Shown piece after piece: positions 9,846 through 54,940 of a stretch of 64,000 nucleotides of DNA. Position numbers and translations under genes: made by a program. The stretch spans positions 431,448 to 495,447 of the forward strand of contig BDDD01000346.1 of assembly GCA_001972305.1 (NCBI GenBank), written 5' to 3'. Under the pieces are notes generated by a model that made no database searches, was not told the DNA's origin, and was given only the letters and a program-made list of their open reading frames with translations. Numbering within the stretch: position 1 is the first letter of the stretch; the number at the start of each line of letters is the position of its first letter. This DNA is from Cephalotus follicularis. Taxonomy: Eukaryota > Streptophyta > Magnoliopsida > Oxalidales > Cephalotaceae.

Positions 9846-9848
9846 AGC

Positions 9849-19371: not shown

Positions 19372-22300
19372 CCTTCAGTGCAGAATGTAATTTTAACTAT
19401 TTTAAAAGCTGATTTTCAACTCATTTTCACATCGCCGCTTGACCGGAGTCTCACTTGAGGTATTCAAGCATTGGAAACATAGTTTTCTACGGTTTTCAAA
19501 GACCTAATTGTCAAATTGCTAGAGTGACGAAGTGAGCCATAGGCAACGATCCAGTGATTTTCATCAACTGGATGGACATTTCTTGTAACGGTCCGCATTA
19601 ATTTTGGGCAAATTGATGTTTGGGCTTGGGGGAAATTTTTTTTTTCTTCTCCTTGGTTGTGGTTGGCTTGGGCTCTTTTCTTGGATGATGTTAGTTTGGC
19701 TTAGGCTTGGTGGAGGCCCAATGGTTGTTATGGATTAAGAGATAAGAGATGTTTAGTTGGTGTTGGGATATGTGCAAAGCTTGCTTAAGAAGCTTGGCAG
19801 TTGGCTTTTAGCAGACATCTTATCCATCATCTCACACCTGAAGAAGCATTTGGAAGAGAGAGCTTTCATCTTTCTTCTTTCTTCTTCGTCTTTCTTCTGA
19901 AGCTTTGATCGCTGTTTGAGGTTGGGACTTTCTTTCACCTGTCTATGCGTCTAGCAGGTGAGTGTCCTCCTCAGTACGTTTTGGTGCGTCGCATGGTTGG
20001 TGCAGGCACGCTCTTTGAGGCCAAGGAAGAGCTTCGCCTTGGTTTTCATGTACGTATGTGGTTCATGCATAGCTTTAGAGATGTTGTTCATGGTAGCTAA
20101 GCGTTGTTGTGTGTTGATCTTGCAGAGGATGATCTAGGCACGGAGTCCGCACAACAAGGAAGCTAGCTGAGGAAGCTACTGATACTAGTGAGTGGGATGT
20201 TCTTCTTTCTATCAATTGATAACTAAGAGTTTATTGTTTATATGTCCTTTCATGATATTATCTTTGACTAGGATTTCTTCTCCTGTCATTTTGTTGATAT
20301 TGCATGTGAATACTGTTGTTTTCGAGTTGAGGGCTCAATGCATGGGTTGAACTTGTTGTTTCCCCTTTCTGTTTAAGTATTCATGCTTTATTTGATATCA
20401 TGTGTTGTTGTCCTTGGGTACTGGTTAGTGGTTACTTGGTTATGTATGAGACTTGTTGTGGCTGATGGGGGGGTAGGCGTTCGATCCCAATTACATTAAG
20501 CAGTGTCATTGTCTATGATGAGCTGTTGAGTGTGACTGTGCCTGGGTTCCATACCCGGATCTGCTCATTTCATTGGTCTATGATGGAATGATGTGTGAGG
20601 GCAGCCGAGGATCCGCTATCTTCTCTTGTCAGGCCATAATGGAGTCCTCGGGCATGAGATTGTCGGACGAGATGGTCTAAGTGGTGATACACTTACCTCT
20701 GAGCTGATGTTCTCCTATGTCATCTCGTCAAGGGTGGAGCTGAGCAGTGATTCACGGGCCCCTTGGACGATACTAGCGCTATGTGATTGCCGACGAGTTA
20801 GCTCCTTGATCGATTTTCATATGGTGTAGTGCTGAACTCGTGATTGTTGACAGGGGTGGGCTTGTGTAGCCCCTCGATCGATGTTCATGGAGTGAGGTGT
20901 GCCAACGTGTGATTACCGGGGAAGGAGTGCTGACGTAGCCCTTCTACCGATGTTCATACGGAGCTCTGGAAGTGGGTATCTATATGCGTATATGAGGGAT
21001 GTGTACAGTCCTGTAGCCCATGACCGCGTTGATGGAACGCCAACGGAGTTGTTATTTGTGCTTGCCGAGGTGGTTCCAGCTATGGAAGTGTGTGAGTTTG
21101 ATGTGTGCATGTGCGTGTGTGGAATGTGCTTGTGATTGATACAGTACCAGTAGTCCCCTTGATAATTGTTGATCCTTAGAGTTGATCTTTTGTTGATCCT
21201 TGGATCCCTGGCATGTTCTAACATATAACCTGTTGTTTATCTTCTTTCCTTGAGGTCGGTCATTGAGTTGGTAGCTCTGACATCTCCTCGGGTTTTCCTT
21301 TTTATCGATATCCTTGTATATTTTCACCTCTGCCTTGTTTTGTTGAGCAGGGGATATGGGTTGTCCTTTGGCCCAGTTGGGGCAGGGCACGTTTACCTTG
21401 GCTCTTGGTTTATGGTTTTGCGTGCATGCTTGATTTTGTAATTGTTCGATTGAACATCAAACGGAGATCCTAGGCTTTTCTATTTGGTACTAAGATGTAA
21501 GTGTGGACCATGACTTTCAGTCTTGGTGTTTTTTAAAAAAATTAAAATTATGCACACTTGTGTCTTAGGACCAAATCGACCGGGAACCCTTGCCAGGTTT
21601 CCAACACTTGGCACCCCGGTGGAAATGGGTTTGCCCAGGATATTCCTTGATCTTACTCACTAGTCAGTTAGATTAATCCCCTCTCAGTTTTGTGTGCAGA
21701 GGGAGCGGGGCAGCAGGGTTCTTGAGATCCACTAAGGACAGCGTGTTGAAAGAGGTAGACGTCGGACGCAGCACCTTAGGATGGCTCCTAGGCCACGAGC
21801 ACCTTCATGCATTTGGGGACATTCATAGGGTTTTTGTATAGACTTGTTGATGTCTATGTTTTGTAAAACCTTCTTTTGTAAACATGTATATGATTTCTTT
21901 GATGTTGTGGGTCCTTAGCATTTTGCCCGGGACCGTGTATATAATTCACTTGTTTTATATACTTTCCTTGTTGTTATGAGCCGTTTTCCCAGCCCTGGCG
22001 CTGTTTACGCTAAGTGTTTGGGCGTGCAGGGATGACGTATGAGTTTGGGGGTTGTTTGACCCATGGCAGAGAAGCGCCTCTCCCCAGCCCTGGCCTTGGT
22101 GAAACTTCAGTGTTTCTCCCCGGGCCCTTTTGTGCGTGGCACCTCTGCTAAGATGCCAGGGGAGGGGTGGCTATGTTCATGTTTGGTCAAACCTTAGGTT
22201 GACTTCACAGCTCGGGTTGGTTGACCCTAAGCTGAGGTCTGGTGGCGTCCCCGGGCATGCCGTAGGCGTTAAGTGGGAGTAAGCAGTTTTGTAATAACCG

Positions 22301-22463
22301 CAAATTCAATTAATGTATATTGATCCAATTTTGAAATAAAATATACATTTTAATTGAGTTAGTTGTCCAATTATAATAATTTCTGTGTTTGGTAATTGCT
22401 TAGGATGAGTGGATGTACAATTGGTGAAGTATCAAACTTAAGAAACCCTAAAACAGCCATCGA

Positions 22464-22543
22464 CAGCCGACTGTCACAGGGCGACAGTCGACTGTCTGAT
22501 GCGTGTGAAGAACAGTCGACTGCCTGCTAAAGACAGTCGACTG
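22464..22543. repeat. phased CAGTCGACTG array, first cluster of A1
   Basis: Sites start at 22464 (CAGCCGACTG), 22485, 22513 and 22534, spacing 21, 28, 21. The same 21/28/21 pattern is found in the other family A LTRs. A further degraded copy may lie at 22454. Confidence 0.85.
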
Positions 22544-23569
22544 GATCGGTACAGAATAGGTGTCTGTGCATGCCTGTGAGAATGGATCAATGGGGCATTG
22601 CATGAGGGGCAGGTGTCATGCGTGACAAGTAGCTGCCAGAGCATGCAAAATAGAATGCTTGCATGTTCTCTGCAACCTGCAAAGACAGAATAGAAAGAAG
22701 AGAAAAGAGAGAAAGAGGAATGCATGTGAGAGAGAGAAGGAATGAGAGAAAACTAAGTAAAGAATCTGGCGAATTCAAAGCTTTATATCAGCTGTCCAAG
22801 AGCTGAATGTGAGTTAGAAAACACTGGAGATAGAGGAGGGTGGCTGGAAAAATTATTGGAGCTTGCATGTTGATGGATTAAAGCTCAAAGAGGGAATTGA
22901 AGCTTTGTTTTCTTGGTAAGTCCTCAATTCGAACTCACTGCCATGTGATGATAATGTAACTAGGAGAATGGTAAGATGTCTTCTGTTAATACGGTTAAGA
23001 TTAGCAATTCTAGAATTGAAATTGAAATGGTAATGAAAGGAGTAAGAATTATGGACATGAAGCTTAGAGGAGTGTTAACAACTCTAGTTCAAATTGTAGT
23101 GTTGTTAGTTAGCATGATATAAACTTATGGATTTCTCTAAGTACACATATACATCTTCTGTCCACACTTTAAGATCAAAGAATCCGAAATTGAAAGATAT
23201 TTGACAAGGAGTTCAAAGGGAAGTTGTAAGAATGAAGTTTAAGGCTTAAGGAACTAGTAATAAGCTACTGTATGAATTGTAGTGGTCATGAGGTTACTGA
23301 AACTTACTAGTACTAATGCATGTGCCATAAACATTCATGCATAGATTGATTCTGCTGGAATTGAAAGATTGTTGGTGAAAAGCTTGGAAACTCAAAGAGA
23401 AAGATCAATTCCAATTGATCTTGGGATAAGCAATTGAGGTAGGGGTAATGACATGTTTATGGAAGATATTTTATGCATATCATGTATGTTATTTTCTGTA
23501 TGATTGCATGTGTGGAATTGGACATTGAAAAATATACAACCTGCTACTGCCTGCATTTCTGGGCAGAAG

Positions 23570-23682
23570 CAGTCGACTGTTCTTCATGACAGTCGACTAC
23601 TCAATGCATCCAGTCGACTGTGAAGACAAAACAGTCGACTGCTAAACCAAAACAGCCGACTGTTCTTGAGAACAGCCGACTG
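23570..23682. repeat. phased CAGTCGACTG array, second cluster of A1
   Basis: Six sites start at 23570, 23590, 23611, 23632, 23653 and 23673 (spacing 20, 21, 21, 21, 20). Two of them read CAGCCGACTG. Confidence 0.87.
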
Positions 23683-26600
23683 TCCTGGGTTAAAAATTCT
23701 GCTATAGGTCCTGTTCGGACCCGATTGAATTGCTACTGTTCTTGTCATTGTTTCTGTATATGCTACTGTTAATTAGTATATACTAATGATTGTTATAAAC
23801 CCTATTGTTCCATATTTCCAAAGATTGAACAGCTATGTGCTATATACACAATTTATGATATCAACTATCATTTTCAAAGGAAAGATTATTGTTTAAAAGA
23901 ACTACTGATTTTCCTCCTATGAGAGGTACCTACTGTTTTGTTTCCCAAATTAGAAACCACTATTGTATTGATATCGTTTTCCTCCTATGAGACGTACGAT
24001 AAATGAATTGTTATATGTTTCTAAAGAAAACAATACTATATTGCATATTAGACATATATGTAATATTATTGAATTGATTGTCTTTGTTATTGCCGTTAGT
24101 CGAGTGATGGAGGATGTCACTGACTACGGAGCACGTAGTATGGGCTGCGTGCGGATGATTTACGTTTTAAATAATTCGAAGATGAATGCTTCCGCTTATG
24201 TTTTTGAACTGTTATTGGAATGCTGAATAATTATACTTATTCCTGATATCACTATATATGTTTGTCCAATGTATTTGGAACGACGGGGTGTGACAAGTTT
24301 TCTCTAGTTTTGCCCGACCTCCCGACCTCGGACCAGCTCGGTCCCTGGAGATGTTTTGGTGGGTGAGCCCTGGTGGATCCCATGGGCGCTGGGCCGGGGT
24401 GAGATTCCATCTCCTTAGTGTAAGTTGAGCATTTGGGGGACCTCGGGTATGGTCTCATGCTTGGCGTTAGTCCCCGGGCCCTTGTGTTGATCCCAGGCTT
24501 AGCTTATGTTAAATGTTCTCGTTTTCTTGTTCCCGGGCGTATCCTTGTTTGTATGGATCATGCCCTGGGGAGGACATGCCCGTGGAGGACATGTCTGAAG
24601 TTAGTCGTCCAATGAGGACATGCCCGAGGATGGCTCATCCGGGGAAGGCATGTCTTAGGATGGGGTGCAGGCCTAGCTTGTGTTACGTCATGTTGTGTTG
24701 GGTGGTGTTGGCATCCCCTGCCCGGGACCCCAGGCAAGACGTAGTGTTACGTTCCCTGCCCTGGCTCCCTCACCTGGCATGTTCCTTTAGTGGAACGGTG
24801 CGTTTGGGCAGTGGTTGCTGTGTGCGTCCCCTTTCGTTAAACGATGAGTTTGGGGAATGGTTTTATGTAAGGGTTATTTAGAGTTTTGCCATTCCTTCTT
24901 TGTCCTTTCTCTGCCGTGTGTTTCTTCGGGCATTTCTTGTTTTATGCCTTAGGTGCGTTTGGCCTGGGGAGTGTGGCTCTCCTCGGCAGCGTGTTTTTAA
25001 TGCCTGTCCTGGCCTTAGTGTTAGCCTTTATTTGTTGGGGTTTTGGTTAGGGACCCAGGTGGGGGATCCTTTCACCTGGCACGGCCGTCCTCGGGCGGGG
25101 GTGCTCGGGAACGGGGCATGTCATTTCTTCCCATCTTGTTGATTCGATTGTCACCGTCTATTGGCTACTGATTGATTGATTGATTGTTTGAGCCGTAAGT
25201 ATTGTGAGTCTAAGTTCGGAACGTTGGACGCACATTCCCATTTCTCCATTAGACATCACCACTTATCGGCATTATACTGACAGATTGATTGATTGTATTG
25301 TGTGGATCCTATAAAGCGACCTTATGACTCGCATCGGCATGTTAGGCTGTCGACTTTCTCCACCTATTTCGTCGATCGCGTCATTTATTGTATTGATCTG
25401 CTGATGAGCAGTACTGTATTGATTGATGATTGATGCTCCCGGAGGGTCGTAGCTCCCTAACGGTATAGTAGCTCCCCCATGGTTGTAGCTCATCGATACT
25501 GTATTGACCCAGCCATAGGCTGGAAGACCCATGAGTCCCAAACCTGATTAGTTTGAGACAAATGGGTAGACCCCCCACCTTTTTCGAAGGACTTCCTTCC
25601 GTGGGATTGATCATTGCCACTGATTGACACTATACTGACCGAGGTCGCATGGATATGATTGATTGATTGGGTGTTTAATGCACCACCACCGAGTGTCTGC
25701 CATTGATTGATTGTTATAGATCCTATCCATATGCTTTGTTATGGGCTAGTGACATATGGATAGTAGATCGCCAACTGTATTCATGCATTTGCCATATCAT
25801 GCATTGATATTGTACACCGTACATTTATATTGTATAAACTGTCACCAATATTGCACATTGTATATGCATACATGCTGCATGGGGTTTCTGCTTAGCCTTG
25901 TGGCTAACCCCATCCTTTGGGGTGGGGCTGTGTTGTACTTTTATGTGTGGCATAGGTAGGGCAGCAGGTAGCAGCAGACAGAAGGATTAAACTTTCGGTG
26001 CGACCGCATGACCGTTAGCATATGACAGAGCCGTTTGACAGATCGTACCGAGGAGACTGAAGACTAGTATTGTAGGGGAATGTAATGAAGTGAAATGACT
26101 GGCATAGTATTGTATCTGAATATGTTGTCTTGTAATAACCGAACTATATCGTATTGTATCGCATGGATGAATTTTTGTATTGCATCTTCCGCTTATGACA
26201 TGTTTTGAAGTTTTAAGTTTTTCGCATTTTTATATTGCTAGTCTCGACCACTGTATTGTATAATGGATTTAGAGTAATGCCACGTGTCCGTTCTGCGGGC
26301 ACGGGGTGTTACACTAACTACCACCATGAACTTTGATGATGATAGAGAGGCAAACACTTATTACCAGCACTTGGCGGGCAATCACTCCCTCACGATCTGC
26401 GTTGCAGATAAGTTGGTGAATAAGCTCTAGCCAACTCCTGTCATGTAGGCTTACCGCAGTAGTCAGTGATGCACTCCGATCACTAGACCAATGGAACTAT
26501 CAGAGACAAACAATACACTCCGTATAGCAATATTACATATATAATATGTAACATAACAATAGTTTTCTTTTGAGAAAACAGTAAAACACTTTGATAAAAT

Positions 26601-27085
26601 CTCATTTTGAGAAAACAATAAACACTTCAATAAGTTCCCTTTTTTAGAGAAGAGTAACACTTCCTGGGTTTTCATTTAAGAAAACAATAAAACACTTCAA
26701 TGGCTCTTGCTTGGAGAATCAGTACAATAACACTAGGTTTTCTTTAAAACATTAGTTGAAAACCTTAAATTATGCTTATAGCATTCGATAATTAAAATCC
26801 TTGAAATCATTTTAGAACAACGGTATTTATGAAATACTTTGATAGATATACAATTTATATAACAGTAGCAATAGCAATATATAATTGCATAACAGTAACA
26901 CTATCGGTTCAAGGATTCAACAATAACATAAACAGTACACTCAATCCAATTTAAGAAATCAAATAGTAGATACCAAGCCACTCAATTCCTATATTCTGAT
27001 TACACCTAGCAGAGGTTGATTGTGGAAATCATCCTCTATGGAAGCCAGTGTAATTCCCTCGAATTTAATCTAAACAGTGCATTAA

Positions 27086-27243
27086 GCGTCGACTGTCTCA
27101 CATAAAGCGTCACCAGTTATATATAAAGCGTCGACAGTATATCCAAAGCGTCGACAGTATTCAAATGTCTAAGCGTCAATCAAGTCACTCAAAGCATCGA
27201 CCATTTACTCCTAAGCGTCGACCGTCACTACTAAAGCGTCAGC
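27086..27243. repeat. phased GCGTCGAC array, first cluster of B1
   Basis: Eight sites (GCGTCGAC and one-base variants) start at 27086, 27107, 27128, 27148, 27173, 27194, 27215 and 27236: spacing 21, 21, 20, 25, 21, 21, 21. LTR B2 has the same order of spacings, including the longer step. Confidence 0.85.
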
Positions 27244-28839
27244 GCTATAAGTCGACCAGGAAATTTCCAGAAATACAGAGCATGCATTTCATACTTCAAT
27301 CAATCCAATTCAGCATGCAAACATAGAAATAATCATCATAACACGAAATACATGCTATATGTTCAAAGCCATGTCATACCACCTACCTCAATCGCTTATC
27401 CCATAATCAATTGGTTTGATTCTTTTGTCTAAGTTCCAATACTCCTATAATTCAGTCAACTCCAATTCAATCCCCAATTTCCAGAATCTAATTCCAGGTT
27501 TGTCACACCCCGTTTTCCATAAATTCCAATATAGACAGCATATGTGGTGATATCAGAATTTAAGCATAATATTCCAGCACAATTTAATAACAATATATCA
27601 TAAAAATTGCGGAAGCACTCGATAAGCCAGAATATTTAAAACATAAGTCATCCGCACGCATCCCATACTACGTGCGGGAAAAGCCAACAGTTATCCTTAC
27701 AATACATCACAACGGGGTATGAACCGTTCAATACGATACAAAATACAGTACATCAATCATCATCATTAAAATAACAACCTTAAAACAAAAGGAAGAAGCT
27801 ATCCAAGCTTCAGCGGCAATCTTCCGAGTCTTCACTTAATCTGTAAGGGTTGGGGGTTAGCCGTTGTCCTCACTTGGCTAAGTAGGAAAATAATGTATGA
27901 TAAAGAATATATGGATGCAATATGTATGACAATTTATATCAAAATAACATTTGAATGGGCCAATATATAAGCAATCATGCCAAGTGGCCATAGACAATCC
28001 ATATGCAAGAATACCGCACAAGGGTACAATCAATTCAACACTCACTGGGTGTTACATGTCGCTAACTCCTAGCACAGACTGTACACCACCTAACTATCAT
28101 CCTACGCTCCGAGAAATGATAGATAAGGTAACACTTACTACCGGCATTAGCGGGTAGTTTAACACTGCAAACACACTGGGGGTGATACTCTGGCCAACTC
28201 CTGGCACCCAGAATCACATTCCGTAGTTGATGACAACCTCCGTCACTCAACCACAGCAACATACACAAACAATACAATCACTTCAATAATAATATTACAT
28301 ATATTGATAATATGCAATAGAAAATAGTTTTCTTTTGAACTTGTAACACTTCACTTATCGTACCTCTCTTTGGAGGAAAACGACATCACTTCAATAATGG
28401 TTTCCACTTTGGGAAAATAAAATCAGTAGGTACCTCTCATATAGGAGGAAAATCAATAACTCATTTGAAATAATCACTCACTTGAAATGATAGTTTATAT
28501 CATAAATTGGGTACATAGCCCATTTGGTTTCAATCTTTGAAATATCAGTGGTAGTGGTGATAAACGACACCACAAACAGTTACAATAATGTGACAGTAGC
28601 ACATTTGATAACACTTTCATAAAATCAATATTTCTTGTAATAAGAATTCTCACTTGAAATTGGTATTTTAAACCATGCATTGTATGTACACTATATATTT
28701 CATTCAATCGTTGCAATACCAGTAGTTGTGATGTTAAATAACACCAACCAGTATATACTAGATGATGGTAGCATATACAATTCAATAACAATATCAAAAC
28801 AGGAACAATTCAATCAATGCATGAATTCACTGCCCAGAA

Positions 28840-28909
28840 CAGTCGGCTGCCTCAAGAACCAGCCGGCTGCTTTGGTTGGCAGTCGACTGCTTTGGGTGGC
28901 AGTCGACTG
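28840..28909. repeat. phased CAGTCGACTG array of A2 (distal cluster)
   Basis: Four sites start at 28840, 28860, 28880 and 28900 with regular 20-bp steps. Two are CAGTCGGCTG/CAGCCGGCTG variants and two are perfect CAGTCGACTG. Confidence 0.82.
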
Positions 28910-30065
28910 TATATGCCCAGAAATTGCAGAAAATTGCAGTCATGTGATGGCAATCCAATTCCAAATCAATTCAACACTTGTAATTATGCAGAAAATAACA
29001 TACATAACATGCATACTCAAATCTTCTATAACATATCACTACCCCTACCTCAAATCGCTATCCCAAGATCAATTGAATGATCTTTCTCTTTGAGTTCCAA
29101 GTCACTTTTGTCAACCAATCTTTCAATTCAGCAATATCAATCTATGTACACATGATTTATGGGTATATGTATCAAAATCAGTAGGTTTAATAACAACAAC
29201 AATTCCCACAGTAGCTTAATTATCAAGTTCCTCAAGTCTTACTTCCATTTAACATTTTCCTTGAACTCTATGTCAACTTATCATTAATCTCGAATTTATT
29301 CATTTTATCTTGCTTGACAGTAGATATACTCATGAAATCAGTATGTATATATTTCTAATCAACTACTATTATACTGGAATTCTTAAGTCTCTATCTCCAA
29401 TTAAAACACTTTCCATATTTCAATTAATTTACTCCATCCATCTATTAATTGTATGTTTCAACAGTAGATATATATGTATATTTAGGATCCATTAAACATA
29501 TATCCTAACTCTTAGTAACAATCAAAATCCGTTCTAGAGATTATGATCACTAATTACACTTGATCCAATTCACTACTTTCTATTTCAATTTTAAGAATTG
29601 TTGTTTCTAATCCATTAACAGTAGATAATTAACATTCCTAATCACATTTAATCACCAAAATAACAAGAGTTTCGGATTAAGAACTTACCAAGTCTCTAAA
29701 GCCTCAAAATTCCTTCTTTGAGCCTCCAAAATCCTCCAATTCAAGCTCCAATGAATCCTTAGCAAACCCTCAATTCTCTCTGTGTTTCTAACACTCATAA
29801 CACTATACAAACAGCTGATATAACTCTCAACTCGTCAGATTTGTTACCTACTCACATGCACTAACATTCCTTTTTCTTTCTTTACTCTAACACATGCTTC
29901 ACTCACTCCACTTTTCATTAATTAATCAATTGTGGTTGTTAGATCTGCAGAGAACATGCATTCATTCTCCTTTTGCATGTTCTGGCCGGTGGTGGAGAGT
30001 ATGGGTGTCATTCCCACCTGTCCCTCTTGTCTTTGCACATGGTGTGCAATCTGTCCAGACAAAAA

Positions 30066-30146
30066 CAGTCGGCTGGAATTAGTGGGCAGTCGACTGGTTT
30101 TCCTCACGTGGAAGGCAGTCGGCTGTTGTCCTATGGCAGTCGGCTG
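30066..30146. repeat. phased CAGTCGACTG array of A2 (promoter-side cluster)
   Basis: Sites start at 30066, 30087, 30116 and 30137: spacing 21, 29, 21, as in the other family A copies read in reverse. Confidence 0.82.
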
Positions 30147-30842
30147 TCCGGCCTAAATTAGGGTTTCCAAATTTGGTACTTTTCCCAATTGCACATTTAA
30201 TCAACCTCCAACAATTACCAATCATAGAAATCAATGAAATTGGACAATTAACTCAATAAAATGAATATTTAATTTAAATATTAAATCAAAATGCAATAAT
30301 TAAAGTTGCGGTCATTACAAGGTTTGTATGATAACAGTAGGTATAGACATCAAAAACAGTATGTATATAAAGCTGATTCACCATGATAACAACAAGTGAG
30401 CTCGAATCAGTAGCTTACCACTTCAAGGGAAGCTTCAATTTCCATTTGAACACTCCTTGTTCAACATGCAAAGTTCCAGTAATCTCCCAGAACGATTCCT
30501 CCTTTTTCCAAGTGTTTCTAACTCCTATTTCAGCTCATACTCGTAGCTGATATAGAACTCTCATTCAGTGTCTCATTAATTTCATTAACTCAATCTCCTG
30601 GTATCTTCCTTCTCTCTCTCTACTGTGTTCTTCCTCTTTTCTGTTTTGTTTTCATTCTTTCACTTCTCGCAGATTCCATGCGTTGAGCAACCCTCAGGAC
30701 ACTCATGCCTCACTCGTTAGCAGCTGAGGACACGTTTTCGGCGTCCTTGACACGTCCTAGGACCCTTGTCCAGCCTAAAATCTGTTTAAACGCCACTGCT
30801 CTGTTCAACTCAACACGTAGCACACACCTGGAACCGCCCAAA

Positions 30843-31000
30843 ACGTCGACGGTTTAGCGTTGGCGTCGACGGTTTGTGCGCTATAGTTTGGTTTCCAAAC
30901 AACACGTATCAACACTTTTCCTAGGCTAAAGTGTCGACAGTTGCTTTGTGAGCGTCGACGGTTTAGAACAAAGCGTCGATACTTGTCTCTTGGCGTCGAC
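30843..31000. repeat. phased GCGTCGAC array, second cluster of B1
   Basis: Sites start near 30843, 30863, 30931, 30952, 30973 and 30993. Local spacings are 20, 21, 21 and 20, and the larger step of 68 is close to three units. Most read GCGTCGACGG. Confidence 0.8.
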
Positions 31001-31262
31001 GGTTTGGCGCCATAATTCCTTTTTTAAAACTTTCTATAATTCAACTTCTCATTTCTTTCAATTAGATCCTCAATCCCATCCCATAACGACAATTAGCTTA
31101 AATAAAAGGACAATTAAGCATTTAATTTCAAATCAATGTATATTTTATTCATTAATTGTACAATATACATTAAATTCGAAATTGCGGTTATTATAGAAAA
31201 ATTTTTTCGCGGGTTTTCTTGAATATAATTTGTGAACTGTGAAGTGGGTTTTTTGATTGAAA

Positions 31263-31489: not shown

Positions 31490-33419
31490 TGTCACACCCC
31501 GTTTTCCATTAACAACATATATATGGTTATCAGTTAATAATTCAGCATTTAACAATAATGCAAAATAATCAAAACATAAAACTTTGCGGAAGCATTTGAT
31601 ATATTGGATTATTTTAAATCTCCGCATGCAGCCCATACTACAAGCGTACAAGTACAACACAATTATATTTTACATATCGGAAATGTAAATATAACATAAC
31701 GGAAGTATGAATTATTACAAATCAACATTAACAACCATAAAATAAGAAGCCTCCGAGTATAACTTCAACAGTAGGTCCACAACACCTTCACTTCAATCTG
31801 AAATTGTAGGGGTTAGCCTTTGTCCTCACTTGGCTAAGTAGGAATTATGCATGAATATGAAAATATATATGTAATCATGCATGACATTTATGATTTTGAA
31901 ACAGTTTATATATATGCCAATATATACGAAAACATGTCAAATAGCTACAATCAATCAGTTATCAAAGATACCGCTCAAGGGTACAATCACTCAGTTGTCC
32001 GAAGACCAGTAGTGGTTGACACATGTTGCTAACTCCTAGCACAAACTGCGCACCACCTAACTACCACCATGCACTCCGATGATGGCAGAAAAGGTAAACA
32101 ATTCTGTCGGTGTTTAGCGAGCAGCTAACAGTCAGGATCGGCATTGCCAATAAATTTGGTGAGAGCTCTAGCCAACTCCTGGCACATAGGTCCACTTCTG
32201 TAGTCAGTGATGGCTCCTATCACTCGACTAACAGAACTAGCAATCACAGTCAATACAGTGTATTACATATATAATGTAATAAAACAGTTGGTCTCTTTTG
32301 TAGAGAAAACAGTAAAACAGTATCAGTGGTCCTCATTTGGGACAAAATAGCAGTAACACTTTCAGTAGGTTCTTGTAGAGAACAAGATAACAGTAACAAG
32401 TTTGTGCATTTAGCACTCAATTATAAACAGTAACAGTAAAATGTGCATATAGCACTCAGTTCTTTGAAAACAGTAAACAGTAGTTGTGCGTATAGCACAT
32501 AGTTCTTGAAGCTGTTTGAAACAATTTAACAGTAGTATTTGAACACTGGTAACAGTTAACACTTTGAATGATATGCAATGCACAACAACCATTCAATCAA
32601 TTTTAAGAACAACAGTAATACAATCATCTCCCAAAATATGCAATCAAACAGTAGTTGTGTCACACCCCGTTTCACAAACAACATATAAAGTGGTGGCAAT
32701 TAACATATAAATCCGGCTTATGCAATTTACCATAAAATTAAAACTTTCCATATCCATTAACAACTCGCGGAAGCATATAAAATAAGCCGAAACATAACGC
32801 AACATGCATCCCATACTACATGCTACAACAGTAAATATCATCACAGTTAACTGCCCTCAACGGAGCGTGAACAAGATTCATTATTACAATCATTCATTTA
32901 TTACAATGATCCATTAACATTCCTCAAAAGTAAACAACATAAAACTTCACTTTGCTCCTCGGAGCTCAACGGTAACCAACGGCTGCATCAACCTGAAACA
33001 CACTGAAGTTGTAGGGGGTTAGCCTTTGTCCTTACTCGGCAAAGCCATACAAGCGATCTAGGGTTACGGATAAAACATGTCATGACATGAATGCACAATG
33101 ATGCAGTACATACTATATCTCGATGCGTATATAATATATATATATATATACATATGCCACAACCACAAGGTCACAGCCCACGATGTCACCAGAGCACATC
33201 AACACACTACACGGTTCACAATATCATAATAGCACAAGTAGCCAACTATGTCTCAAGTCTCTAAGGACCCATCACTCCACAGTAACGATCAGCCACGTTC
33301 CACAGGACAACACTATACTCAATCAGGCATGTCATAGCAGACAATCAATACACTCAATGCAAACAATTGTTCCCGTCACTGGCACAACGGCGAGTAACAA
33401 CACTCAGAACACACTACGA

Positions 33420-33590
33420 TACAAGCACGGCGGCAAGTACCAACACTTCCCCGCTAACGGCAACACTCACGATACTAGCACGGCGGCTAAGTACCAACAT
33501 TACCCCGCTAGCGGCAACACTCAATCACAATCAAATACAATAACATCCACGTTACTAGCACGGCGGCTAAGTAACAACAATCAATACAAT
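33420..33590. repeat. short tandem repeat in LTR E
   Basis: Three copies of a unit with CACGGCGGCTAAGTACCAAC start near 33426, 33479 and 33559. Unit length is 53 bp for the first step; the second step is longer. The open frame across it is a by-product of the repeat. Confidence 0.6.
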
Positions 33591-34310
33591 CACGATAACA
33601 GTGCAGTCACAGCACACACAAAACCACTCAAGTAGTTTATAAAATAAATACTTGATCAAAACATCTCGTTCAAAACATTGCAGTTCGTTTCCAAAACGTT
33701 TAAAGTATAAATACTTACAACATATATATATTTGTCAAAATATATATATATATATAACACTCCATTTCCCAAGTAAATTATGCTTCATAAAATACTTGCA
33801 ACAATACATTTTCCTTCAAACATTTCAAGTAATTTATAGATATAAATACTTGCAACATATATATATTTGTCAAAATATATATAACAATACTTTTCCCGAA
33901 AACTCAAGTATCAAAGTACTTGGAATCATACACTTTCCGTAAAACCCGGTTATTTGAACTACATTCAAATACCTCAAAAATACGTATTTCGTATAACAGT
34001 TTCGCAATCCCTTGAAAGCCATTTTCACAATCCTTTTGGAAAGTATACTTTTTCATACAACAAATGATTTTAATAAACCATTCAATTAACCAAACACATT
34101 TTCACAAGGTTTTGGAAGCCCTTTTCACAATCTTTCGAGAATATATATATATCTCAAAACGTACATTTCGCATAAAGTAATGATTTATAGAAATCATGTT
34201 TGCACCTCCAAAAGGGGTAAAACGTTTCACAATCATCAATAACTAGTTCGAAAAACAGTTATCACGGTACAAGATGCACGCATATGCTCACAATGCAAAA
34301 CAGTCCCAAA

Positions 34311-34572: not shown

Positions 34573-34645
34573 ATCCATACACATTCCTTTGTCACCACTT
34601 GTCCCAGCATGCCACCTCAGCAAGCCCGGTAGAGTGACACGTGGA

Positions 34646-35537: not shown

Positions 35538-35799
35538 CCCCGTGTACAAAAACACACCAACACACTTTTTCTTGCAACTTTCAACACCCCAAAGGGGAAA
35601 AACACGATCCCCATTAACTCAACGTGTAAAATCACATTAGAAATGCAACATTACACCTTAACGAAAACCCCGGGCGTTACAAGTTGCCATAGCTGTTCAA
35701 AGAGATAAAATGATTACACATAGTAGAGGTTGATTATGGAAATCATCCCCATTGGAAACTAGTGTAAATTTGTACGATTAGCCAAAACAGTACACTAAA

Positions 35800-38087: not shown

Positions 38088-40258
38088 CCCTTTGACATGG
38101 CCGGACCCAGCCCACTGGGATCCGTCACACCCATTACGAGGCTAAGCCTCCCATTAGAGACTCATCTCGTAGGTTCAGCAGAACAGAGTTTCAAAAATAG
38201 ATTTTTAAACAGGATGAATATAAAAAGGTTTAGCTAAAAACCATTTAATAAATAAAAGAATTTCTTCAAAAATTTGAAAATAATTCTAACTCTTAAATTT
38301 TTAAGAAAATCGGGCATGTAGTATCCGTTCATCAGACTATGCCCCCTGTAAGGAAAAACACAATTCATATAATGGGCTTAGCCCTTAGCAGACCATACTC
38401 TCGTAGGAAGAATTTCACACTTAAAATAGTAAACATGTATGGGTTGGGCTCCGCCTCAACCATATTATCAAAGTATGAAATATAAATAGGGCTCAACCCT
38501 TCAACAAACATACTATATCAAAACAATACTGCCATTCGTAGGTAGATTTCAATAACAGAATAGACAAAATAGGTTTGGGGCCCGCCCATCTAATAAAAAA
38601 CAGAAAACAATTTATCGGACTCAATCCGTCAACGAAATAAAGTTTTAAATACAAACAGTACAGAAAAAGAGCTCAGCTCATTAAACATTAAAGCAATAAA
38701 TGGAAATAAATGTATGAATCATGAATGTATTATGCAATCAATGGAATGCAGACAACAGAATCGGCAAGTATGCCCTCGTGGTCTCACCTCAGCTGACTGA
38801 CTGACTTCGGCTGACAAAACTTAGCAGACTAACCTATCATAACTGAAAACGGAGGGGATTAGTCCAGAGGACTAATGAGATGGAACAAAAGACTCGAACA
38901 GTGTTTTGCTAGCAATAAATTGTATTTTTGCAGAAATTTTATAACCAGAAGTATAAAAAAAATTAAACAGAATTTCAGAAACAGAATGAAAATCCAAAAT
39001 CCGATTTAGAAAACAAATTATAAAATAGAAATTAACAGAATCAGCAGAACATCATATTTTTATCATAAAAAAATTATAAAACAAAAGTTAACAGAATCAG
39101 CAGAAAGTCAGATCATTTTCTTAAAACAGACTTAAATCATCATAAACTCAAATATATGTAGGATTTAACAGAGTTTAAAACAAAATAAATATATAACAAT
39201 GCAAAGGGTCTGCGAGGTAAGGTTGACGACTGGGTCCCGTCGAGCTGAACGTCTAGCAGAAAATAGTGGCAATGACACCGTCGTGTCAAAGCATCAGCAG
39301 AAAGTCTACAGTGTAGACAGTGCCTCTCATGAGCAACAAATGTATAACTAATACAATACCGAGATCTCCAGTGCATCGAAACATATTTAAAACAGATTTC
39401 AAAGATACAGAAATCATCGATGCCTCAAAACAGATTTAAATAGATACATAAATCATTTTCTTATCAAATACAGATATAACTGCAAATAGCGTCATACTAT
39501 GACTATCAATATGCGAGCGTTTGAAAAACATTAAAAGAATGTATCAGACATTTTAAACTTAAACAGATTTTAGAAATGAACTAGATCTGAATTCGTTAAG
39601 ATACGAAAATAATTAAGTGAATACGTGTAAACCTTTAAGTCATTTAAAAGAATTTCAGAAATAAAGGGTTAAAGGAAAGCGTTTCACTCACAGAACAGAC
39701 GAACAAGTCCTACGACTTGTCGCCTCCATGGCCGACCTTAAAAGTAAGATCCTCTGTTATACGGATAACAGATAGATAGACAGATAGACAGATAACAGAC
39801 TATCATAACTCAAACACGACATAAAACCTAAACGCAGCCATGATTCCAACGTATACTCATTATCATGAATGCATATGGCAAAAACCAATAAAATTCCATT
39901 TAAACCTTAATTAAACACAATCCTAAAATCACTAAAGAAACTCCAAGTAGTTGTCCAAGTTATCCAATTTTGAATAAACTAAACAATTCAAGTTCTTATT
40001 ATTGCAGAAACAGATACGGAATTACAGAATTCAACGGAAAGCAGAATTAACGGAACAGAGTTCAGAGTTTACCAGAAACAGACGGAGCGGAGTTGTAATG
40101 TCCCGAATTTTCATTTAATGTATTATTGTAATTTCCATTGTAATAATACATCAAATCAATGAAGGTTATGGATTTCCAGCTTGTATTGTTAAATTTTGAG
40201 TAAATAGTGTTAAGAAATGTTGTGATGGGTTGAAATGGGGGGAAAAGGGGCGTTTAAA

Positions 40259-40497
40259 GCGTCGACGCCCAGAGGTAGCGTCAACGCCAAGAAGTAAAAG
40301 CCGCGTTTAAGGCTCTTTGCCTTAAAGCGTCGATGACAAGAGATAGCGTCGACGCCAAGAAGTAAAGCACCACGCTAAGGGTTCTTGCCCTAAAGCGTTG
40401 ATGCCAAAGAGATAAAGCGTTAACACTATTCATGGAACTTGTTAGCGCTAAGGAAGGATGGTCAACGGGTCGACGCCAAGAGGTAAACGTCGACACC
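40259..40497. repeat. phased GCGTCGACGC array of B3, first cluster
   Basis: Sites start at 40259, 40279, 40327, 40346, 40395, 40417, 40468 and near 40488, i.e. pairs about 20 bp apart with 48-51 bp between pairs. Many carry TCGA to TTGA or TCAA changes. Confidence 0.8.
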
Positions 40498-40678
40498 TAA
40501 ACATGACAACAGATGAAGCTAAAGCACTAACAGAAGACGCGTTAAAGACAGGTGTAGCCTATTGATCAGGCGCCTTATCACGCCAGAGGTAGTGTGTTAA
40601 GCATGTCGCCATTTCCCCAGGCCTGGAATGGCAGAATGAGAGAAAGGAGGGGACAGGTGTGTCAGGCAGGGAGTTGAG

Positions 40679-40683
<5 letters not shown>

Positions 40684-40719
<36 letters not shown>
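40684..40719. repeat. (GA)n microsatellite in B3
   Basis: An uninterrupted GA run of about 35 bp inside the LTR. Confidence 0.9.
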
Positions 40720-41237
40720 GCAACTCCTCCATAAACACACCTCTCATCTCTTCAACCTGTACCAAAAATGAAAAGAGAAAAGAGAAAGAAAACAGAGGAA
40801 GAGAGAAACGGGGGAAGGAAGGAGAAAGAGATAACCATATTCTCCATACTTGAACTCGGAGATAAAGGCTTGGAAGCTCGGACCGAGGTTGGAATCAAGC
40901 TTGGATTTGGAGTTACTGTACCAGACTTGGGAGCTCAAAGCGCCACGAGTCTGTGACTTTGAGGAAGTGGACTACGATTCCTAACTTGGAATTTGAGGTA
41001 GGGATTATATAACTGTGTTTTGAGTTCAAATATAGTATATGCTCATTTGATGAAATGCATAAATGGTGGATTGTGGGCTGTGAAATGTTGTGGTTTTCCA
41101 TTGATAGATAAACTATTATACATGTCCTGATCTGGAATGGAAATGGATTAAGTTACATGTGTTGTTATGCTTGATTTCACTGATATTAAGACATGGTTGG
41201 ATTTTTCAATGGAGAAGACGTGTTTTGGTTCACTGAA

Positions 41238-41440
41238 CCGTCGATGCTTAGAGGACAAGCGTCGACACCTTGGCATGTTACTCAAGGAAAGAGACGCTTA
41301 AAGCGTCGACGCTAAGAAGTAAGTGTTGATGCCTAAGGTTCCTACCTTAAAGCATCAACGCCAAGAGGCAAAGCGTCGACCCCTAAGGTTCCTACCTTAA
41401 AGCGTTGACGCCAAGAGGTAAAACGCCGACGCTTAAAAGT
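41238..41440. repeat. phased GCGTCGACGC array of B3, second cluster
   Basis: Sites start at 41238, 41259, 41303, 41323, 41352, 41373, 41402 and 41423. Pairs are spaced 21, 20, 21 and 21, with 29 bp between the last three pairs. Confidence 0.82.
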
Positions 41441-42208
41441 CTTCCATACACGTTGACGCCTAGAGTATGCGTTAACGCCTAAGAGGGCTGCCATAAACGT
41501 TGATGCCTATAGGGTATGTGTTGACGCCAAAAGAGTCTGTTTGCATTTTGAGCATATGATTGCCTGCATATTACTGTGGATTGATTGTCATTGATTCTAA
41601 AAGTGTTTTATCATTCTAGAAACAGTGCATACTTGATTTTTTTTTATAAATCATTATTTTACATGGAAATATTATAGTTCAAAAGATTGAGATACGGTTT
41701 CAAAGAATGATTATTCATTTTGAACAAATGTGTTATTTCAAGTATTTTATAACTTATAAACTGCTTGAAACGGATTGATTGTTGGATTGTGATTTGGATT
41801 GATGCCTTTTTAGTCACGGTGGTGGAGGTTGTCACTGATGGCTAACGGCGGGTTAGGCTCTAGGGGCCAGGAGATGGCTAGGGACACCCATACTGGTTAC
41901 TTGGCCTAGTGCGAGTAACAATGGATTGATTTCCTTGTTTTGAGTCGGCCAGAGATGGGGCTGAAGTAGGAGTACAATATCGGTGCTAGGAGATGGCGAT
42001 GCGCTTCGTACGTACAGATGGATTGATTGGTGCTTTGTGACACGATTGATGGATTGTATTGATATAGCCACTTGGCATATATATATATATATATATATAT
42101 ATTTCAAAATAAACTGTCATGCATGATTACATGCATATTTTCCTACTTAGCCGAGTGAGAACAAAGGCTAATACCTACAATTTCATATTAACGAAGTGAA
42201 GTGGAGAC

Positions 42209-42246
<38 letters not shown>

Positions 42247-43617
42247 TTTTATATATTACGTGTTGCATCATGATGTATTCATTTCATGACATTTGTTATC
42301 GTTGACCCCGAAGTACTTTTATATCTTTCCTACTTAGCTAGTGGAATCGGCTAACCCTATCAAATTACAGATTGATGCAATGGGATCGGTATTACTTAAG
42401 CTTGGGGGACCGAAGAGAAGATAGAATTGTCTTTCTTTTGGAGTAATGTTAAATTGTTTAATGTATTAATGGATATTAGTTCATGCTCCGTTTGAGGGCG
42501 ATTAACGATGGTTATATTGTATTGTTATTAAACATTTGGTAACATGTAGTATGGGTTGCATGCTACGTTACTTTAAATTCAGCTTATATTTAAATGCTTC
42601 CGCAAGAATTTATATGTTTGGAAAGTTTAAAATTTTCCTCGATTTCATTTAAGCTGGATATATGTTAATTGCCATGACCTTCGGGTTGTATATGGAAATG
42701 GGGTGTGATAGGAATACAGAGCCGGAATCATTGAGCGGAACTGGAACGGAACACCTTTATGGGGAAAACAGATTCAGAGTGCTGGACGCGCGTCTGCAAA
42801 TCGGTGCATGAGGCTACTGGCGGTGGGCTCACGCGCCGCCACTGATTGGTGCGTCGGAGGTCGGGGATCATGGATCTAAGACCCGTTGGTCACAGCACCG
42901 CCGCATCTGGCCGGAACGAGCGCATTTGACCGAGGCTATCTTCGCCAGTGAATTAAGCTGTTGGCGTTGTCATGGGTCGGGGCTGGTCATGTTTGACTCG
43001 CCTTGACGCCAGGATGCCGGATCTGGGCTCACCTTGTCGTGATTGTCGCCGGAGATGAAGATTCAATGTACGACAGAGGTGGGGAGAGAGAAACTGCTGG
43101 TCGCGCACACCGGGGCCGTTGCCAGTGCCGGGGTGGTGTCTTGTGCGCTCGGGAGGCCACAGTGGTCTTGTCGACGCCTCACCGGCGTCACTTCAACAGT
43201 GACCCGTCGGCAGAGAGAGGAGAGAGAAAAGAGAACGAGAGAGAGGGAGAAGAAAGAGAGAGAGAGAGAGAAAAAATGTAACAATGGCATATTCCTTTAT
43301 ACTCATTAAAATGGATTGGGTTTTTCTCCAGAATTTAACCGATACGAATAGAAATTTGGATGTTTAGGACGTAGCACTTGGCTTATTTTCCAAATTTAGC
43401 AACAATTTCAGTAAAACATCATTTAATTTTAAAACAAGGAAAATTTTACTTGTTATACCGATTAACCATCGGAATAAAATCACACTGATAAAAATTTGTT
43501 AATGTCGTGATGCATATGTCACAAATGCCAGAAAAATAGACTAACCGCTAGCTAGACAGACAGAACGTCACGTAGTCTCACAGACACAGACTACTAGGAC
43601 ATGGATGTCACACCCTT

Positions 43618-47478: not shown

Positions 47479-47652
47479 TGTAATAACAGCAATTTCAATT
47501 AATGTATATTGATCCAATTTTGAGATAAAATATGCATTTTAATTGAGTTATTTGTCCAATTATATTGATTTCTATGATTGGTAATTGCTTGGGGTGATTG
47601 AATATGCATTTGGAGATGTATCAAAGATTGGAAAACCCTAAACTAGCCCAAA

Positions 47653-47732
47653 CAGTCGACTGTCACAGGGCAACAGTCGACTGTTTGCCACGTGATGAAG
47701 GCAGTCGACTGCCCACTATAACCAGTCGACTG
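47653..47732. repeat. phased CAGTCGACTG array, first cluster of the 5' LTR
   Basis: Four perfect palindromes start at 47653, 47674, 47702 and 47723: spacing 21, 28, 21. Confidence 0.9.
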
Positions 47733-48765
47733 GATTTGCCCAGGACAGATTCCTGGCATGTGCAGGGACAAGAATGACAGGTGGGTAAATGGCACATGCG
47801 TTTCACCACCTGCCAGAACATGCAAAAGTGAATGTTTGCATGTTCTCTGCAGACCAACAACCTGCAAATTGAATATTTTATGATAGAAAAGTGAAGAGAG
47901 GGATGCATGTGAAGGAAAGAAAAGGAGAGAAGTGTGTGTGCATGTGACTAGGGAAGGAATCTGACGAATTCATAAGTCTTTGAGACTTATATCAGATGTT
48001 GAATGGTGTATGAGTGTTGGAAAAACACTGAGTGAAGTGAGAATTGCTAAGGATTATTGGAGCTTGCTTTGGTAGGATTTGGAGAACTCAAGAAGGAACC
48101 TTGAAGCTTTGGTCACTTGGTAAGTTCTCAATCCGAAATTCTCTGTAATTATGATGATAAATGACTAGGAGAATATGGAATATCTTCTGTTAATGGATTA
48201 GAATCAACAATTCTTAAATTTGAAATGGAAAGTAGTGAATTGGATCAAGTGGAATTGGTAATTATAACCTCTAGAAAGGATTTTAATTGTTGTTAGTGTT
48301 AGGATATATGCTTAATGATTCCTAAGTATGTATATACCTACTGTCAAACAAGTTAAAATCCATGAATCCGAGATTTAATGATACTTGACATGAAGTTCAA
48401 AGGAAATTGGAAATGGGAGTTAAGACTTAGAACACTTGATGATTAAGCTACTATTGGAATTGAAATTGTTACAAGTAACTACTGAAACCTACTGGTACTA
48501 ATGCATGAGTCTATAAACATGCTTACATAGATTGATATTGCTGAATTGAAAGAATTGTTGGTGAAAGTGACTTGGAACTCAAAGAGAAAGATCAAACTCA
48601 ATTGATCTTGGGATAGCGATTTGAGGTAGGGGTAATGATATGTTATGGAAGATATGAGTATGCATATTATGTATGGTTATTTTCTGCACGATTACATGTG
48701 TTAAAATTGATTGGAAATTGAATTGGTATTGCATGACTTGCTATTTCTGCATTTCTGGGCATAGG

Positions 48766-48878
48766 CAGTCGACTGCCACCCTTGGCAGTCGACTACTCAA
48801 CCTATCCAGTCGACTGCCAGGGCAAAGCAGTCGACTACACAACCCAACAGCCGACTGGTTCTTGAGAGCAGTCGACTG
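48766..48878. repeat. phased CAGTCGACTG array, second cluster of the 5' LTR
   Basis: Six sites start at 48766, 48786, 48807, 48828, 48848 and 48869: spacing 20, 21, 21, 20, 21. Three read CAGTCGACTG, two CAGTCGACTA and one CAGCCGACTG. Confidence 0.9.
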
Positions 48879-50217
48879 TTCTGGGCAGAAATTGTATAAT
48901 CTTGATTGAATTGTTACTGTTGGTACTGTTATTGAATTGTATATACTGCCATCATATAGTATATACTGATCGATGTTATTTAACATCGCTACTACTTATA
49001 TTGCAACGATTAAACCAACTATGCGCCATATGCACAATTCATGGTTTTAAGCACCATTTTCAAATGAAAATTATTATTGTAAGAACTACTGATTGTGATA
49101 TTGTCACTGAATATGCTACTGTCATATTAGTATAAACTGTTTTGGTGTCTTCTAACACCACTACCACTTGTATTTCAATGATTGAAACCAACTATGGGCT
49201 ATGTACCCAATTTACGAAATTAACTATCATTTTCTAATAAATGATTATGGCCAAATGAATTACTGATTTTTCCTCCTACATGAGAGGTACCTACTGTTTT
49301 GTTTCCCAAACTGGAAACCACTATTGAATTGAGATCGTTTTCCTCCGAAGAGATGTACGATAAATGATTGTTATAAGTTTTTAAAGAAAACAACATTTAT
49401 ATTGCATATTGCTGATATATGTACTATTATTATTGAAATGCTTGAATTGATTGTCTATGCTTGCCGTAGCCGAGTGATGGAGGACGTCACTGACTATGGA
49501 TGTGATCCTGGGTGCCAGGAGTTGGCCAGAGCATCACTTAAATGTGTCTGCATTGCAGATTTTATTGTTAAACTACCCGCCAACGCCGGTAGTAATTGTT
49601 ACCTGATCTTTCATCCTCGGAGCATAGGGTGATAGATAGGTGTGCACAGTTGGTGCTAGGAGGTAGCGACATGTGATACCCAAGTGAGTGATGAATTGAT
49701 TGTACCCTTGTGAGGTATTCTTGCATATGGATTGTTTATGGCCACTTGGCATGATTGCTTATATATTGGCTCATTTAAATGTTATTTTGATATAAACTGT
49801 CATACATGTTGCATTCATATATTCCTTATCATACATTATCATTCTACTTAGCCAAGTGAGGACAACGGCTAACCCCTACAATTTCAGATTAAGCAAGGAC
49901 ATTTGGAGACTGCTGCCGAAGCTTGGAGAGCTTCTTTTGTTATTTTAAGGTTGTTATTTTAATGTTGATGATGTTATTGTATTTGATTGAACGGTTCATA
50001 CCTCGTTATGTTGTATTTTTCCTTTTGTAAGGATAATTGTTGGTTTTACCCGCACGTAGTATGGGATGCGTGCGGACGGCTTGTATTTATATTCCGGCTT
50101 ATCGAATGCTTCCGCAAATTTATTTATGAATTGTGCTGGAATATTATTATGCTTATTTCTGATATCACCACATATACTTGTCTATATTGGAATTGAAATA
50201 ACGGGGTGTGACAAGCA

Positions 50218-53468: not shown

Positions 53469-53641
53469 TGTAATGACCACAACTTTATTTATTGCATTTT
53501 GATTTAAAATTTAAATTAAATATGCATTTTATTGAGTTACTTGTCCAATTTCATTAATTTTTATGATTGGTAATGGTTTGGAGATGATTGAGTGTACAAT
53601 TGGGGATGTATCAATGACTAGAAACCCTAAATTAGGCATGA

Positions 53642-53721
53642 CAGCCGACTGCCACAAGGCAACAGCCGACTGCCTGCCACGTGAGGAAGGCAGTCGACTG
53701 GCCACCAAATCCAGCCGACTG
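53642..53721. repeat. phased CAGTCGACTG array, first cluster of the 3' LTR
   Basis: Sites start at 53642, 53663, 53691 and 53712 (21, 28, 21). Three read CAGCCGACTG and one CAGTCGACTG. Confidence 0.87.
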
Positions 53722-54870
53722 GTATGCCCTGGACAGATTGCCTAGCATGTGCAAAGACATGAGGGACAGATGGGATAATGACCCATGCTTCCACCACCGG
53801 CCAGAACATGCAAAAGGGAGCATGTTTGCATGTTCTCTGCAGATCTAACAACTACAATTGATTAATTAAAGGAAAAGTGGAGTGAGTGAAACATGTGTTG
53901 GAGTAAAGAAAGAAAAGAATTTTTGAGTGCATATGAGTAGGTGATGATCTGACGAATTAGGTGGGATATTAACATTATATCAGCTGAATGAGAGATGTTG
54001 GAGTGTTAGAAACACAGAAAGAAGTGAGGAATTGCTAAGGATTCATTGGAGCTTGATTGGAGGCTCAAAGAAAGGACTTTTTGGAGTTTAAATCTTGGTA
54101 AGTTCTTTGATCCGAATTCTGGTTGTTATGTTAATAAAATATGACTAGGAATGTCAATTATCTACTGTTGAAGGATTAGAATTAACAATCTTTGAAATTG
54201 AAATGGAAAGTAATAATGAAATCAAGAGGAATTGGTGATATAGCCTCTAGAATAAATTGTAATTGTTGTTAATGATAAGATATATTTAACGACTCCTAAG
54301 TAAGGATATATCTACTGTTGAAACATACAAATCTATAGATGGATTGAATAAATTATTTGAGATGTGGAAGTATTTTAAATGGAACTAGAAGGCTTGAGAT
54401 TTTTAATGATGATTATAGTTGTTGATTAGTATATATACCTACTGATTTTGTTGGTACATATCTTCTGTCAAAACAAGTTAAATGAATGGATTCGAATTTA
54501 ATGATTGTTGACATAGAGTTCAAAAGGAAAAGTGATGAAATGATAAAAGTGATGATAAATGAGCTAGTGTTAAGCTTGTTAATGTTATTGAAACCTACTG
54601 ATATTGATGTATATGTTCATAAACAAACATGCATAGATCTATACTACTGAATTGAAAGAATTGCTGGTGAAAGTGACTTGGAACTCAAAGAGAAAGATCA
54701 CATCCAATTGATCTTGGGATAGCAATTTGAGGTAGGGGTAGTGATATGTTATGGAAGATTTGAGTATGCATATTATGTATGTTTATTTTCTGCATAATTA
54801 TATGTATTGAAGTGATTGGAATTGGAATTGCATTACATGACTTGCCATTTCTAAAATTTCTGGGCAGAAG

Positions 54871-54940
54871 CAGCCGACTGCCACCCAAAGCAGTCGACTA
54901 CTTCACCCAGCAGCCGGCTGGTTCCTGAGGCAACCGACTG
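54871..54940. repeat. phased CAGTCGACTG array, second cluster of the 3' LTR
   Basis: Sites start at 54871, 54891, 54911 and 54931 in regular 20-bp steps, as in solo LTR A2. The last two are variants (CAGCCGGCTG, CAACCGACTG). Confidence 0.82.

Follow-up and report, generated by a model that had tools for sequence, protein, structure and literature searches.

The window analysed here, 64,000 nucleotides of the genome of Cephalotus follicularis (positions 431448-495447 of contig BDDD01000346.1), contains retrotransposons whose long terminal repeats (LTRs) carry arrays of a 10-bp word that is centred on CG, oriented and nearly palindromic, and these arrays are real, genome-wide and far above chance. 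We favour the idea, with about as much doubt as confidence, that they serve as operators to which a sequence-specific DNA-binding protein, most likely a host transcription factor, would bind. An earlier note on this DNA had described LTR families, labelled by letters, that bear different TCGA-centred palindromes repeated with the same 21-bp step, and had read this as one architecture with changed words.

The A word (CAGTCGACTG) occurs 21 times in the window, against 0.06 copies expected at uniform base composition; the B word (GCGTCGACGC) and GACATCGATGTC occur three times each, and 166 CG-centred near-palindromes were tabulated there with their steps. Over the 1.577-Gb genome we counted pairs, that is, two copies of a word separated by a gap of 8-20 bp, and obtained 46,302 for A, 3,912 for B and 1,209 for the perfect C word (ACATCGATGT), versus 150, 6 and 1, respectively, for the reversed patterns. 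A control TCGA palindrome with the same composition as the A word (CTGTCGACAG) gave nine pairs, every one at step 30. The arrays thus exceed chance. We also drew 20 regions of 10 kb at random from this genome. When words built from only one or two base types are excluded, the three commonest 8-bp palindromes in this sample are AGTCGACT (68 copies), CGTCGACG (22) and CATCGATG (13), with 3.05 expected for each, and a perfect 10-bp palindrome surrounds 71 of the 635 TCGA tetramers (11.2%), versus 0.5-5.6% for the 15 other self-complementary 4-mers. Strict arrays (at least three like sites, with links of 18-30 bp) number 15 and fall in five of the 20 regions, with none in one mononucleotide shuffle, while a permissive list, judged by eye, puts TCGA-type clusters in 12 of the 20; looked for across the full genome, as the earlier note had proposed, the arrays are genome-wide.

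Symmetry as the essential feature of the words, which the earlier note called palindromes, is not supported: the sites are oriented near-palindromes. The A variant CAGCCGACTG stands head-to-tail at 33,419 places in the genome (16,670 + 16,749) and opposed at 1,147 (398 convergent and 749 divergent), a polarity of 29 to 1. It is present in 23 of 33 array rows (a count that omits the overlapping loci L002, L004, L007, L010, L012, L013 and L015, and in which L008 and L009 still count one array twice), with two or more copies in 14 of these 23 and mixed orientation in none. The asymmetric C form ACATCGACGT behaves likewise, with 5,863 head-to-tail places (2,910 + 2,953) versus 600 convergent ones (the two arrangements searched), and its tandems outnumber the perfect C pairs about five to one. 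Once the sense of the LTR had been assigned from the flanks after masking of the words (117 sites were left unassigned, and the counts take in the overlapping loci L006/L007 and L014/L015), the sense-oriented A sites comprised CAGTCGACTG (49), CAGCCGACTG (41), CAGCCGGCTG (5) and CAGTCGGCTG (0), and among 154 sites there were 69 T4>C substitutions versus five A7>G. In LTR sense, A, B and D all read G(T/C)CGAC; the corresponding C form, ATCGAC, is the sense form in the Ty3-like locus L016 and in L029, and prevails by 2 to 1 in the window. Both E LTRs are minus-oriented, and the word CAGTCGGCTG attributed to a family E is nothing other than CAGCCGACTG, the A variant, seen from the opposite strand; we rejected E as a separate word.

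Steps were counted as distinct spacers among the first listed places (69 for A, 50 for B and 49 for C), which is not a random draw. Among the matches listed, the 54 distinct A spacers give a step of 21 bp in 29 cases, 20 in 10 and 27-28 in 11, with two cases each at 19 and 22 and none at 23-26; the step is 20-21 in 31 of 43 B spacers, while for C, whose palindrome is longer (AAAGACATCGATGTCTTT), the mode is 19 (7 of 23), followed by 20 (5 of 23). D has 1,080 tandem pairs genome-wide, mostly at step 20-21 among the matches listed, and a fifth word, GAGTCGACTC (GAG), has 1,949 pairs genome-wide, at step 13 in 45 of the 50 matches listed. A spacing of about two helical turns is thus common and not universal, so that the single 21-bp step proposed for all families is sound for A, B and D (20-21 bp), approximate for C (about 19) and wrong for GAG. 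The spacers themselves are unrelated: A spacers of equal length share 0.40-0.41 base identity in the better orientation. The arrangement in pairs about 28-30 bp apart, also proposed earlier, recurs as 21-28-21 in the A LTRs A1, A2 and A3 and as 21-29-21 in E1. Step-13 GAGTCGACTC pairs or mixed pairs were also seen at L027 (7061-7112) and L030 (3730-3752).

Each of the eight Ty3-like LTRs that we compared within the window (A1, A2, A3, E1, E2, D1, D2 and B; Table 1) contains two arrays, the first starting at +144 to +194 and the second between +813 and about +1,400, and in all eight both arrays share one word type, CAG or GCG/CCG (array limits for this comparison having been set by the analyst). 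In the homologous LTRs A1, A2, A3 and E1, the sites of array 1 start at +174/175, 195/196, 223-225 and 244-246, that is, within 2 bp, and pairwise comparison gives agreement at 229 of 240 site bases (95%) versus 122 of 186 spacer bases (66%). A conserved TATATCA lies at +495 to +510 in the same four LTRs, with array 1 about 240-260 bp upstream of it. The idea of one architecture with changed words is supported by these data, with two arrays at similar positions, one word type per LTR, and a spacing that is kept where the spacers are not. The A LTRs are assigned to Ty3/gypsy from the adjoining gag-pol pieces (Retrotrans_gag, Ty3_capsid, RVP_2, RVT_1, RT_RNaseH and SH3_Tf2-1), and E, D and B are placed with them from LTR similarity to A; we presume these Ty3 elements to be Tekay-like. 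As a separate observation, the middle gap of array 1 holds a G-box-like core, CCACGTGA, in A2 (47691-47700), A3 and E1, and GATGCGTGTGA instead in A1.

The words are not private to families, contrary to what the earlier note supposed. They cross element superfamilies, since A occurs in Ty3-like LTRs and in locus L017, and C in the Ty3-like L016 (so placed by a gag match and a primer site) and in the copia element L036. The latter is Ty1/copia by its gag_pre-integrs and RVT_2 matches (PF13976, 6.2e-14; PF07727, 2.1e-22), and its C array sits in the leader, between the primer site and gag. In L017 the A arrays lie in a 1-kb direct repeat (98.1% alike) that starts with TGTTGG and, with words masked, has no blastn similarity to the A LTRs; the last of its sites stands some 40-50 bp before TATTTAAA, and between the repeats lies a copia-like RNase H piece, without a Pfam match, that aligns to copia regions of other loci. 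We regard L017 as probably, with some doubt, a copia-type element, and the A word as probably present in both Ty3-like and copia-type LTRs. Between the repeats L017 also has an open reading frame (ORF) at 5205-6404, starting MAPKRARGS, with a weak likeness, below cut-off, to PF20167 (putative plant transposon protein); a relative (57.6%) stands beside A arrays in the overlapping loci L002-L004.

In the reading that we favour, the sites, which are polar, nearly palindromic 10-bp words centred on CG, would act as operators in the control regions of retrotransposons, and their spacing of about two turns would let protein molecules line up in a single orientation along one face of the helix, usually two by two. 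One array of a Ty3-like LTR would lie upstream of the promoter and one downstream, and a single trans-acting protein would read both, so that the same word is expected in both. We prefer a DNA-binding protein because the sites are conserved, oriented and regularly spaced around the promoter, and because both arrays of an LTR have one word; we prefer a host factor because the same word is used by element types that are unrelated, and because L034, the one two-LTR A element examined, has no gene for a reader. That a protein binds, that it acts in transcription, that it comes from the host and which protein it may be are all points that we infer from sequence. A candidate would be an AP2/ERF protein, since GTCGAC/GCCGAC in A, B and D and ATCGAC in most polar C sites fit (G/a)(C/t)CGAC, the form given for the C-repeat (CRT) element of barley CBF in the relevant part of PMC3602543. 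The fit to the core of the CRT/dehydration-responsive element (CRT/DRE) recognised by CBF/DREB/ERF proteins of the AP2 type is thus mixed, since A, B, D and the polar C sites contain it and perfect ACATCGATGT sites do not; as presented in that part of the literature, however, CRT/DRE has neither the near-palindromic flanks, nor the word-specific outer bases, nor the regular phasing seen here.

Several observations speak against this reading. The gap of 27-28 bp that separates pairs of sites breaks the helical phase, and C words lie about 19 bp and GAG words 13 bp apart. Perfect ACATCGATGT sites have no CGAC, and the polar variants are reversed in the B LTR and in L036 (where ATCGAC is outnumbered, 1 versus 2). 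A single DREB-type protein does not explain the differences between words, nor why the A core keeps its AG and CT flanks across the 154 sites. Finally, the sharing of words may stem from an exchange of array modules rather than from the independent choice of one host factor, because the spacers of the F and A arrays are more alike than shuffles are (2 of 500 shuffles reach the observed value).

Exchange between elements does seem to have changed the word of one LTR. E2, which has the A word, is 82.7% alike to L027, which has GCG-type words, over 1,501 bp of its 3' part, whereas its array region with the next 211 bp matches L030, which has the A word, at 78-79%; the same search gave no L027 match for its first 800 bp. 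The pattern looks like a recombination, rather than a stepwise change, that imported the array-bearing half, and it is the one well-resolved case of a word change. The D and A LTRs, whose words differ, show a likeness of about 75% over the 103 bp immediately before array 2 and of 68% over a further stretch of 799 bp; here recombination and stepwise change may equally have made the difference. One could also conceive of an exchangeable address system among the retroelements of this lineage, in which the word of a phased module of polar sites would switch in both arrays together, through recombination or concerted change, and so track or evade one of several paralogous DNA-binding proteins, with Ty1 and Ty3 elements competing for the same few readers; we offer this idea tentatively and think it unlikely.

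The same events suit a rival explanation, in which slippage, unequal exchange and swapping between elements would have spread the arrays neutrally, with no protein to read them. The 41-bp two-site duplications in array 2 of E2, the recombinant appearance of this LTR (array region nearest L030, 3' 1.5 kb nearest L027) and the likeness of F and A spacers are all in its favour. We nevertheless consider it improbable, because in four LTRs the sites are kept at 95% while spacers and flanks diverge (66%), because the spacing classes are sharp despite unrelated spacers, because the polarity is 29 to 1, and because the word type matches in both arrays of an LTR.

It could also be argued that the elements code for their own reader, an anti-silencing or activating protein similar to VANC, with words and proteins that co-evolve. 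The logic would be that of VANDAL elements, where, according to the pertinent part of PMC5735166, short family-specific motifs are repeated in non-coding DNA. The decay of CpG gives an indirect hint of the removal of DNA methylation that such a protein would bring about: in five direct-repeat pairs the CG core is kept more often inside arrays (changed to TG/CA in 5 cases, kept in 47, other in 1) than outside (22, 57 and 7, respectively; Fisher p 0.0145 with the class "other" excluded), although L016 and L034 supply most of this signal, L017 and L023 do not show it, and the pairs are not each proven to be LTR pairs. Active Tekay elements of sunflower are reported to have an extra ORF (in the part of PMC12844716 that describes them), but its protein resembles double-stranded-RNA-binding proteins. 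What weighs against a self-encoded reader is L034, the one A element with two LTRs that was examined (A-array LTRs 92.5% alike; a single, broken copy): besides gag-pol pieces it has no other sense ORF of at least 100 aa, and fewer than 50 bp separate its last pol piece from the 3' repeat, so that the co-varying gene envisaged in the earlier note was not found in this element. As words also cross element superfamilies, we judge a reader of this kind rather unlikely.

We think it very improbable that the palindromes work at the level of RNA or single-stranded DNA, by forming hairpins or dimerisation signals in the retroelement RNA. Four A arrays do fold as RNA much more stably than their shuffles (z -4.8 to -8.5, equalled by 0 of 200 shuffles), transcribed DNA holds one of the arrays, and that of L036 is in the leader after the primer site; yet any repeated palindrome folds well, one array stands upstream of the TATA-like motif, the commonest sense variant gives A-C mismatches, and the G-U-compatible CAGTCGGCTG is found in none of 95 sense-assigned sites (5 more are unassigned). 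The excess of T4>C had seemed to reflect G-U pairing in an antisense RNA, which it would fit; we abandoned this candidate because all substitutions, once counted in sense orientation, gave it no support, transitions away from positions 4 and 7 being balanced (15 versus 17).

LTRs with regulatory repeats and DNA transposons with family-specific motif arrays are already known, and they come closest to what we describe. In the VANDAL/VANC system of Arabidopsis, as described in the part of PMC5735166 that concerns it, short motifs such as YAGTATTAY are repeated in the non-coding DNA of transposons and differ between related families; here, words also cross families. VANDALs are DNA transposons that code for their own reader, whereas here we deal with LTR elements, with CG-centred polar near-palindromes spaced by about two turns, with words shared across superfamilies and, in L034, with no reader gene; the string "palindrom" is absent from the text of that paper. 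In Tnt1 and other stress-responsive plant LTR elements, tandem repeats in U3 take part in the control of transcription, and subfamilies differ in U3 motifs and in stress response (from the relevant portions of PMC3601003 and PMC10794571). Array 1, upstream of TATATCA in A1, A2, A3 and E1, resembles these in being a set of repeated sites near a promoter, as do the sites of L017 upstream of TATTTAAA; it is the presence of two arrays per Ty3-like LTR, one of them downstream of the TATA-like motif, the sharp step of 20-21 bp, the uniform polarity and the occurrence at tens of thousands of places that set the present arrays apart. Full-text searches of the open-licence literature yielded no prior description by title or abstract, and, among the matches listed, the papers containing the exact word looked unrelated by title. 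Exact A pairs were absent from IMG/VR contigs, and the ORFs associated with arrays, used as protein queries for other species, had no match at E 0.1. The gag piece of L034, by contrast, matched eight proteins, every one of them from Cephalotus follicularis (69-82% alike over 19-43% of the query). If our reading is true, phased polar arrays with a few alternative words, which Ty1 and Ty3 elements have in common and exchange as whole sets, would be a natural operator series, with which one could ask how a transposon chooses and changes the host protein by which it is driven or silenced. The question that we would put to readers is what binds CAGYCGACTG, GCGTCGACGC and ACATCGAYGT.

The positions of the LTRs and arrays are collected in Table 1. 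The interval 22290..54940, within which the earlier note had placed all the families, leaves out the C array (19034-19380).

Table 1. LTRs and site arrays of the window, by family (positions in the window)
Feature	Positions	Strand	Remarks
A1 solo LTR, TGTAATAACC...GGGGTGTGACA	22290..24295	+	target duplication AGTTT; ends and duplication read
A1 array 1, 4 sites, steps 21-28-21	22464..22543	+	
A1 array 2, 6 sites, steps 20-21	23570..23682	+	
A2 LTR	47479..50213	+	primer site TGGTATCAGAG (50218) and gag-pol pieces (50293-53457) follow
A2 array 1, 4 sites, steps 21-28-21	47653..47732	+	
A2 array 2, 6 sites, steps 20-21	48766..48878	+	
A3 LTR, truncated by 163-bp satellite	53469..55366	+	
A3 array 1, 4 sites, steps 21-28-21	53642..53721	+	
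A3 array 2, 4 sites, step 20	54871..54940	+	
E1 solo LTR, A word, nested in D1	27501..30319	-	target duplication AGGTT
E1 array 1, 4 sites, steps 21-29-21	30066..30146	-	
E1 array 2, 4 sites, step 20	28840..28909	-	
E2 solo LTR, A word, nested in D2	32658..35681	-	target duplication AGTTG
E2 array 1	35406..35537	-	5 sites in scanned stretch 35400-35540
E2 array 2, 22 sites, partly grown via 41-bp two-site duplication	34305..34872	-	
D1 LTR, 5' part	30320..31195	-	array 1 (30843-31002) has the word CCGTCGACGC, read in the sense of the LTR
D1 LTR, 3' part beyond E1 insertion	26314..27500	-	array 2 (27084-27245) keeps GTCGACGC as the right half of its word; the left half varies
D2 LTR, 5' part	35682..37043	-	array 1 at 36720-36900, array 2 at 35795-35985; GGTAT flanks D2 at both ends
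D2 LTR, 3' part beyond E2 insertion	31490..32657	-	
B solo LTR, word GCGTCGACGC	40094..42710	+	imperfect target duplication GGAGT/GGAAT
B array 1, 6 sites	40255..40480	+	
B array 2, 9 sites	41255..41530	+	CG decayed in several sites
C array, 12 ACATCGAYGT-type sites	19030..19380	+	in TGTAACGCCCC... LTR starting at 18321; one array seen

The element at 47479-55366, bounded by A2 and A3, has gag, protease, reverse transcriptase and RNase H pieces, with no integrase match before its 3' LTR. Where they align, its two LTRs show a difference of about 12-26%, and A3 is equally close to E1 and to A2, so that the element is old or mosaic. The satellite that truncates A3 extends over 55364-63983, in units of about 163 bp, with 49 copies in one row. 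A second Ty3-type element, at 5951-17606, has LTR-like repeats that are 93.2% alike and free of site arrays, and it contains a 466-bp tandem duplication (98%) at 11080-12014.

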